DNA of 64,000 nt from Acidimicrobiia bacterium (GTDB lineage Bacteria > Actinomycetota > Acidimicrobiia > Acidimicrobiales > Bin134). Of the stretch, positions 28,727 through 30,460 are shown one piece after another. The position numbers and the translations under genes are program-made. The DNA lies in assembly GCA_022826705.1 (NCBI GenBank), contig JAJDUJ010000010.1, forward strand, positions 62,001 through 126,000, given 5' to 3'. Position 1 is the first letter of the stretch. Every line of letters begins with the position of its first letter. The notes beneath the pieces were generated by a model. That model saw nothing but the letters and a program-made list of their open reading frames with translations. It was not told the origin of the DNA and ran no database searches.

Positions 28727-28780
28727 TTGCGCTGGTGGGGCGATGGGGGATAGTGTGGGACGAAGTGGGAGAGAAGGGGA
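28727..28780 (+). promoter_or_regulatory. mraZ promoter with MraZ-type operator repeats
   Basis: TTGCGC (28727-28732) and TAGTGT (28751-28756) are 18 bases apart and form a plausible promoter. Overlapping it are four direct repeats with exact 10-base spacing: GGGGGA (28745), GTGGGA (28755), GTGGGA (28765) and AGGGGA (28775). Repeated GTGGG elements with 10-base period upstream of mraZ are the known binding site of MraZ, so self-regulation of the dcw cluster is likely. Confidence 0.75.
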
Positions 28781-28807
28781 ATTACTCGGGACCCGTTGGG
28801 GGGAATC

Positions 28808-29215
28808 GTGCTCACCGGTGAGCACACTCGTTCCCTGGACGACAAGGGCCGGCTCTCGTTGCCGCCGGCCTTCCGCTCGGTGCTGGCCGAAGGGGCGTAC
28901 GTGGCCATCTACAGGCAGTGCCTCGGCATTTGGACCGCGGAAGAGGCCCGCAGTGCGCTGGAGCGGCTCGAGGCGGCGGTTCGGGCCGGAGAGGCCACCG
29001 GCGACGAGCTCCGGGCATTCTCCTCCAGCCTCGAACCGGCCACCGTGGATGCCCAAGGCCGGTTGAACCTCCCCTCCTCCAAGCGTGAGGTGCTGGGTCT
29101 GGACAAGAACGTGGTGCTGGTCGGTGTGTTCAACCGCGGCGAGGTGTGGGACGCGGAGCAATGGCAGTCGCTGCAAGCCGAACTCGGCGAGGCAGACGTA
29201 GACCGGTGGTTGTGA
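28808..29215 (+). CDS. mraZ: Transcriptional regulator MraZ
   Basis: MraZ is the AbrB/SpoVT-like regulator at the head of the dcw cluster. The protein of about 135 residues holds two swapped-hairpin domains: GEHTRSLDDKGRLSLPPAFR and PATVDAQGRLNLPSSKREVL, each with the D-x-(K/Q)-G-R-L-x-L-P motif. The GTG at 28808 follows a GGGGGGAATC Shine-Dalgarno and fits the family start; the frame also contains a TTG at 28796. The repeats in front of the gene match its known operator type. Confidence 0.93.
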   Translation: MLTGEHTRSLDDKGRLSLPPAFRSVLAEGAYVAIYRQCLGIWTAEEARSALERLEAAVRAGEATGDELRAFSSSLEPATVDAQGRLNLPSSKREVLGLDKNVVLVGVFNRGEVWDAEQWQSLQAELGEADVDRWL

Positions 29216-29239: not shown

Positions 29240-29420
29240 GGTCGGTGACCTCCATGTAGGCCGACCAGGAGTGCGCTCATGGGCAGTCCTCCGTCCGACG
29301 AGATGGAAGGCCCCTACTCCGCCCGCTTGCCATCTGACACAACCGGGGAGAAATCCCGGAGTGCGGTCGCCGGGCGGAGGACTGCCGATGGGCGACATTC
29401 TTGCCGTCCGATCCCATCGG
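29240..29420 (+). ncRNA. Structured leader of rsmH (mraW RNA-like)
   Basis: The 264-base gap between mraZ and rsmH can fold into several stems. GGTCGG (29240-29245) pairs with CCGACC (29261-29266). A 16-bp stem joins 29282-29297 with 29371-29386 with one G-U pair. Inside it are AGATGG/CCATCT (29301-29306, 29330-29335) and CCGGG/CCCGG (29343-29347, 29355-29359). CCGATGGG (29385-29392) pairs with CCCATCGG (29413-29420). A conserved mraW RNA motif is known upstream of mraW in actinobacteria; this position and architecture fit, but the match to its consensus is not checked. Confidence 0.7.
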
Positions 29421-29479
29421 GCGCAAAAAACAGGCCCTTCACACAGCAGTCTGCTGAGCCGCCAGGGAGGTGAAAAATC

Positions 29480-30460
29480 ATGAACGGGGGGACACCGACA
29501 GCGATCGAACGTCGTTTCGCCCATCACCCCGTCATGGTTACAGAAGTGGTGGAGCACCTGTCTACGGTCCCGTCGGGAGCCTTTCTCGACGCCACCGTGG
29601 GCGGGGGAGGTCACGCTCGGGCGCTCTTGAACGCCCGCCCTGACCTCTCGCTAATAGGCCTCGACCGTGACCCCTCCGCGGTCGAGGCCGCCACCACCGT
29701 CTTGGCTGGCCGCGGCGCCACGATCTGTCAAGCCAGCTTCGGCCAGCTGGGCGACGTTCTGGATTCCCTGGGCGTTGCTCGCATTGTGGGATCGCTGTTC
29801 GACTTCGGGGTGAGCTCTCCGCAACTCGACCAGCCCGAGCGCGGGTTCAGCTATCGCCACGATGGTCCGCTGGACATGAGGATGGACGGCGGCCAGCAGC
29901 TCTCGGCCGACGAAGTGGTGAACGCATGGTCAACAGACGAACTGGTCAAGATCCTGCGCTCTTACGGCGATGAGCGCTACGCCCACCGCATCGCCGCCGC
30001 CATCGCTTCGGCTCGGCCGATCGGGTCTACCACCGAGTTGGCCGAGGTGGTTCGCAATGCCATTCCCGCTCCCGCCCGCCGCCGGGGAGGCCACCCGGCC
30101 AAGCGGACCTTTCAGGCCATTCGCATTGCGGTGAACGATGAGCTGAACCAGATCGAGCCTGCCCTGGAAACAGCCATAAACCGGATGGCACCCGAAGGCC
30201 GGGGGGTGGTCCTCAGCTACCACAGCGGGGAGGACCGCATCGTCAAACAGGTTCTCCGCCGCCGGGCCGGACTTTCCGACGAGTCCCGCTATCTGGGGCT
30301 GCCCCGCTCTGACACCCAGGCCCCACCCGCAATCGAGTTGGTTCCCCGGGGCAGTCGCAAGCCCAGCCCTGCGGAGGTGGCCGACAATCCCCGAGCCTCC
30401 AGCGCCCGCTTTCGGGCCTTCTGCAAGCTGGGGGCCGATCAGGATGAGGTGATCGGCTAA
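29480..30460 (+). CDS. rsmH: 16S rRNA m4C1402 methyltransferase RsmH (MraW)
   Basis: RsmH methylates the N4 of C1402 in 16S rRNA using SAM. The 326-residue protein shows HHPVMVTEVVEHL, the SAM-binding FLDATVGGGGHARALL, the SLFDFGVSSPQLDQPERGFSY segment, DMRMD, HPAKRTFQAIRIAVNDEL, and LSYHSGEDRIVK near the C-terminus. A strong GGGAGGTG lies 8 bases before the ATG. Its stop overlaps the ftsL start by one base. Confidence 0.96.
   Translation: MNGGTPTAIERRFAHHPVMVTEVVEHLSTVPSGAFLDATVGGGGHARALLNARPDLSLIGLDRDPSAVEAATTVLAGRGATICQASFGQLGDVLDSLGVARIVGSLFDFGVSSPQLDQPERGFSYRHDGPLDMRMDGGQQLSADEVVNAWSTDELVKILRSYGDERYAHRIAAAIASARPIGSTTELAEVVRNAIPAPARRRGGHPAKRTFQAIRIAVNDELNQIEPALETAINRMAPEGRGVVLSYHSGEDRIVKQVLRRRAGLSDESRYLGLPRSDTQAPPAIELVPRGSRKPSPAEVADNPRASSARFRAFCKLGADQDEVIG

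Follow-up and report, generated by a model that had tools for sequence, protein, structure and literature searches.

Several described systems resemble the RNA reported here. The mraW RNA motif (Rfam RF01746) is listed for Actinomycetales by Weinberg et al. 2010 (PMC2864571). At the division and cell-wall (dcw) cluster of Rhodobacter sphaeroides, an extended leader with the small RNA UpsM is described (PMC5089854); as described there it precedes the whole cluster and does not lie in the mraZ–rsmH gap, it is alphaproteobacterial, and we liken it to our RNA by description and not by sequence. In more general form, leaders that sequester a Shine-Dalgarno sequence, such as translational riboswitches and ribosomal-protein leaders, hold a downstream ribosome-binding site within a closing stem, and a conserved receptor-like loop is common to these leaders and to our RNA; in contrast to them, our RNA has the start codon placed beyond the stem in some lineages.

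We have analysed a 64,000-nucleotide stretch of an Acidimicrobiia genome (contig JAJDUJ010000010.1; hereafter the window) in which mraZ, a 264-nt gap and rsmH follow each other in the order expected for the dcw cluster, with a structured leader RNA between the two genes at the head of the cluster. This is the same mraZ–rsmH gap, in the same phylum, in which the mraW RNA is found, as the initial annotation correctly stated, and both RNAs combine a long GC-rich stem and an apical loop that is C-rich and conserved. The mraW RNA, however, is a single hairpin with the loop ACUUCCCC on a CCUGGCG-type hairpin and has no counterpart of the hairpin P3 described below, whereas the loop here is GCCCCUNACUCCGCCCG on GGAAG/CUUCC and is not that of the mraW motif. 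The mraW loci that we read also have no rsmH start codon within the stem, unlike about half of the loci with this RNA. The features of the window are as follows.

28796..29215, forward strand: mraZ, 139 aa, supported by tblastn with relatives
29274..29394, forward strand: whole conserved RNA; span of the R1 covariance model (cmsearch R1 125 bits, 1-121/121) and blastn core
29274..29299, forward strand: P1 5' arm, containing the 16-bp stem arm 29282-29297
29302..29334, forward strand: P2 hairpin, GAUGGAAG...CUU(G)CCAUC, bearing loop L2
29310..29325, forward strand: L2, the near-invariant C-rich loop, GCCCCUACUCCGCCCG, 16 nt
29337..29364, forward strand: P3 hairpin, loop GAGAAAU at 29348-29354; missing from many members in other orders
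29369..29394, forward strand: P1 3' arm, from the 59-sequence alignment and pair counts
29376..29380, forward strand: Shine-Dalgarno-like GGAGG inside the P1 3' arm, predicted unpaired probability 0.00
29388..29483, forward strand: AUG in P1 (29388-29390) and 31-aa ORF, whose end overlaps the rsmH AUG (ATGA)
29465..29482, forward strand: second Shine-Dalgarno sequence GGGAGGTG (29465-29472) and rsmH start codon as used in the window's genus
29480..30460, forward strand: rsmH (mraW), 326 aa, 16S rRNA m4C1402 methyltransferase, first gene 3' of the RNA

The 264-nt gap folds with z = -4.0, and none of 200 dinucleotide shuffles is equally stable. Its 16-bp stem pairs 29282-29297 with 29371-29386, including one G-U pair, and encloses a 73-base interior (29298-29370) with two more hairpins; in sequence and folds alike, these dimensions agree exactly with those first annotated. 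Past one G-G mismatch the stem extends outward by seven pairs (29274-29280 with 29388-29394), and P1 has an overall length of 23-25 bp. In alignment A1, comprising 59 sequences, the RNA forms a three-way junction in which P1 occupies columns 1-26 and 102-127, the P2 arms have the consensus GAUGGAAG and CUU(N)CCAUC around the loop GCCCCUACUCCGCCCG, and the P3 loop reads GAGAMAU. The near-invariant P2 loop can be written GCCCCU(N)ACUCCGCCCG, and its columns U48, C49, C50 and C52-54 are invariant across all 59 sequences. The span 29240-29420 originally annotated as a structured leader does hold a real structured RNA, although the conserved unit is narrower, and the 5' hairpin placed at its start (about 29240-29266) is present but confined to the closest relatives. 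As proposed, the 3' hairpin has two bases in common with the large stem (CCGATGGG at 29385-29392 with CCCATCGG at 29413-29420), but it is not conserved, and nor is the suggested competition between the two, as its pairs are broken in relatives within the genus (L006, L010, L012). Another small hairpin (29405-29423, CGTCCGAT-CCC-ATCGGGCG, followed by CAAAAAA) lies between the RNA and the rsmH Shine-Dalgarno sequence; it is kept in the genus only, with some paired changes (GAT/ATC to GACC/GGTC). A kissing interaction between CUCC of L2 and GGAG of the P3 loop was rejected, as the P3 loop drops GGAG, or P3 is gone altogether, while L2 stays.

Compensatory change in the leader is very strong. The comparative folding that the initial annotation proposed as a check finds changes on both sides in 35 of the 43 pairs over the 59 sequences, a number that none of 500 shuffles equals, and the covariation is 0.425 compared with 0.205 +/- 0.006 in the shuffles (0/500). 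The changes are spread over all three helices, with both-side changes at 23 of 25 pairs in P1 (94% of cells paired), four of eight in P2 (94%) and eight of ten in P3 (87%). Over the whole of A1, 92.7% of cells are paired and slid structures pair only 34-46%; because the structure was partly hand-drawn on A1 the percentage paired is flattered, and the double-change counts are less affected. The counts of pairs and of pair types are far beyond what kinship alone is said to give. Strand also matters: read on the gene strand, P1 contains many G-U pairs, and the R1 score of that strand is far above that of the opposite one. That the element is no RNA but an inverted repeat in the DNA or a conserved peptide is highly improbable: 30 of the 59 sequences do have a reading frame open across the RNA, as a peptide would have it, but the reading phase between landmarks is mixed and third codon positions vary least, which argues against a peptide, and the covariation and the one-stranded G-U pairs also speak against the proposal. 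On these sequence comparisons we regard it as refuted in practice.

The RNA is conserved across the class Acidimicrobiia. The R1 model matches 236 of 296 class genomes (about four-fifths) and 261 of 397 genomes of the window's order, and outside the class, in the phylum sample, its best matches have E-values of 0.35 or worse. Of 198 related genomes, 96 yield the core (query 59-180) in a blastn search with the gap, and in 95 order genomes it lies between mraZ and rsmH, with the mraZ end missing from one short locus and the rsmH end from another; the match L096 (G177) adjoins neither gene and was discarded. In nearly all loci examined mraZ lies 5' and rsmH 3' of the RNA, and rsmH is beside it in every locus of sufficient length; rsmH homologues themselves are present in 147 of 149 phylum genomes. 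MraZ identity is often only 30-40% in relatives that carry the RNA core. Among loci of other orders in the class, ACTCCGCCCGC is found in 37 of 40. In 23 short-form sequences from other orders all but one or two columns of L2 are invariant, and in these short forms P2 is longer and a conserved CCAGCG linker stands in place of P3. P3 is absent from L114, L115 and most short forms, and P1 and the loop stay. In the P3-less members L114, L115 and L289-L316, the linker that joins P2 to the P1 3' arm contains an invariant CAGCG, which perhaps substitutes for P3. Two members of one family (L202 and L271, f51) have the loop changed to CTACTCCACA and an unrecognisable P3, as if the element were decaying or switching partner.

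Almost all named records with the loop belong to Acidimicrobiia or to actinobacteria not specified further, among them Candidatus Microthrix, Microthrixaceae and the Sva0996 marine group. The Acidimicrobiia loop also occurs in records titled Bifidobacterium breve or Acidobacteria (L132, L134, L148, L168), which may be MAGs with wrong labels. Two differing copies of the core (G010:C289:913-1044 and G010:C184) occur in an incomplete genome of the genus, possibly as a second gene copy or through contamination. Where the RNA is lacking the gap is often short: among 23 genomes without an R1 match, mraZ and rsmH almost touch in several, and a few have degenerate copies (L202, L204, L207, L208), and the gaps that we read in other actinobacterial classes are mostly short and lack the loop. 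A plasmid collection gave no match to the RNA, no entry in Rfam 15 matches it, the hits to P35 and MIR3454 being chance ones far below their cut-offs, and a partial literature survey found no description of it.

The relation of P1 to the start of rsmH suggests what the RNA may do. Of 131 loci, 62 have a homologue of AUG 29388 (AUG or GUG) in P1 and in the rsmH reading frame, the others having it out of frame (40), absent (28) or in a sequence too short (1), and the other-order set has such a start in frame in 22 of 40 loci. Often no more than about 10 codons lie between the in-frame start and the conserved HxPVM motif, and where so few separate the two, the P1 codon must be the rsmH start. In about half of the loci P1 holds both the ribosome-binding site and the start codon of rsmH. 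The Shine-Dalgarno sequence of such loci (GAGGGG, GGGGGG or GGAGG) is also in P1, with GAGGGG or GGGGGG about 6 nt before the start, and in the window the predicted unpaired probability is 0.00 for the Shine-Dalgarno sequence and 0.005 for the AUG. The homologue of AUG 29388, an in-frame rsmH start in other genera, heads the 31-aa ORF in the window's genus, where rsmH starts about 90 nt downstream with its own Shine-Dalgarno sequence. This AUG is lost within the genus in L016, L018, L020 and L021 while the RNA stays, and the ORF is thus not essential in the genus. As the RNA is conserved where the rsmH start lies outside P1 or the AUG is lost, masking of the start is not its whole function, although, to judge from these sequences, it is one use of P1.

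The reading that we prefer, and to which we give an even chance, is that the RNA acts in cis as a leader of rsmH and the dcw genes behind it, with the start held in P1 and L2 as a receptor. Since the RNA encloses the rsmH start in many species, it probably controls how much of the dcw cluster is made. A closed P1 would hold down the translation of rsmH, and the invariant P2 loop would be the putative receptor of a trans factor, either a protein or a ligand, that decides whether P1 opens, with P3, where present, perhaps helping the loop in this role. For the window's genus our guess is that control could run through the P1-embedded AUG and a short ORF coupled to rsmH, or alternatively through processing or stability of the mRNA. 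Counting against the leader reading, many genomes of the order have mraZ simply next to rsmH with no RNA, and no alternative open fold is conserved. A conserved loop and a junction alone do not show that the RNA is a riboswitch, and transcription attenuation is not indicated, as no intrinsic terminator (a GC hairpin and U run) was found between 28614 and 29560. Upstream of mraZ, at 28730-28775, there is a run of TGGG boxes (TGGGGCGATGGGG...TGTGGGACGAAGTGGGAG) that by eye resembles MraZ operator repeats; one strict spacing pattern gave no match to it.

Several other explanations can be weighed against a cis-acting leader. A serious rival, albeit an unlikely one, is that P1, a duplex of more than 20 bp, is cut, for example by RNase III, which would split mraZ from the dcw message and free the rsmH start, possibly releasing a small RNA that bears L2. 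The length and regularity of P1 fit this, as do the lineages in which the RNA is conserved with the rsmH start outside P1, and there is an analogy in Corynebacterium glutamicum, where the 5' end of mraW at 2,266,932 falls inside the mraW motif (2,267,021-2,266,916); that end is, however, reported as a transcription start (PMC3890552), and processing alone does not explain an invariant 16-nt loop. It is less probable that the RNA is a divergent mraW RNA of common origin and the same function; the initial annotation suggested a possible distant or variant form. Besides the shared gap and phylum, both have C-rich apical loops on long GC-rich stems (ACUUCCCC versus ACUCCGCCC), and in the divergent members L268 and L269 the loop is of a CUUCGCC type, tending towards ACUUCCCC. 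Against this, the loops of the two RNAs differ and the mraW RNA lacks P3 and, in the loci that we read, a start codon in the stem, and the covariance-model search that the annotation called for found no RF01746 match in the window at the gathering cut-off or at E 5, in any order or class genome of the phylum sample, or in 11 divergent class members at E 1; such matches as RF01746 gives here fall in other families and never in the window's order. In the opposite direction, R1 has no match at mraW RNA sites save a single chance one on the wrong strand (E 0.28). As neither model recognises the other, we file this RNA as a new family of structured mRNA leader, an analogue and not a member of RF01746.

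It is tempting to take RsmH itself as the partner of the loop, given that the gene directly downstream encodes this methyltransferase for C1402. We considered an autogenous control, which we regard as improbable, in which RsmH keeps P1 closed by binding L2 as a look-alike of the 16S rRNA site that it methylates. As the assembly contains only a truncated 16S gene of the organism, the comparisons used 16S sequences from close relatives. L2 ACUCCGCCCG resembles 16S ACACCGCCCG around C1402, and CCGCCCG, the sole 7-mer of L2 found in the whole 16S of a relative, covers seven of about 1500 16S positions (0.5%), including C1402, but the match is statistically weak, as composition-matched shuffled loops do equally well in 5-7% of trials. 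In the main alignment the U of CUCCGC never varies, whereas 16S has an A at that place, and divergent members retain only about CUCCGC. For METTL15, the human homologue, binding to short h44 RNAs is at about 1-2 uM, but it binds polyA equally well (PMC10828496), and RsmH reportedly takes the 30S subunit, not free 16S rRNA, as its substrate (PMC5053481). More doubtful still is the class-wide form of this proposal, in which RsmH would read a copy of its 16S target site in the leader and so link ribosome maturation to dcw expression. Base-pairing of L2 with 16S or 23S rRNA was also tried and rejected, 47 of 60 shuffled loops being as good.

The 16-nt loop is almost unchanged while MraZ falls to about 30-40% identity, and we infer from this difference in conservation that the RNA must have a specific partner. 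The RNA sits before genes for division and wall synthesis and just 5' of an rRNA methyltransferase gene. A 2026 preprint reports that MraW-methylated ribosomes better translate messages with start-occluding stems (PMC13317604), and if that effect holds here a stem-bearing rsmH leader would make RsmH synthesis dependent on its own product. The RNA offers a second, independent case for comparison with the mraW RNA of mycobacteria and corynebacteria, and the identity of its partner would reveal what the widespread and mostly uncultured Acidimicrobiia sense when setting the expression of their division genes.
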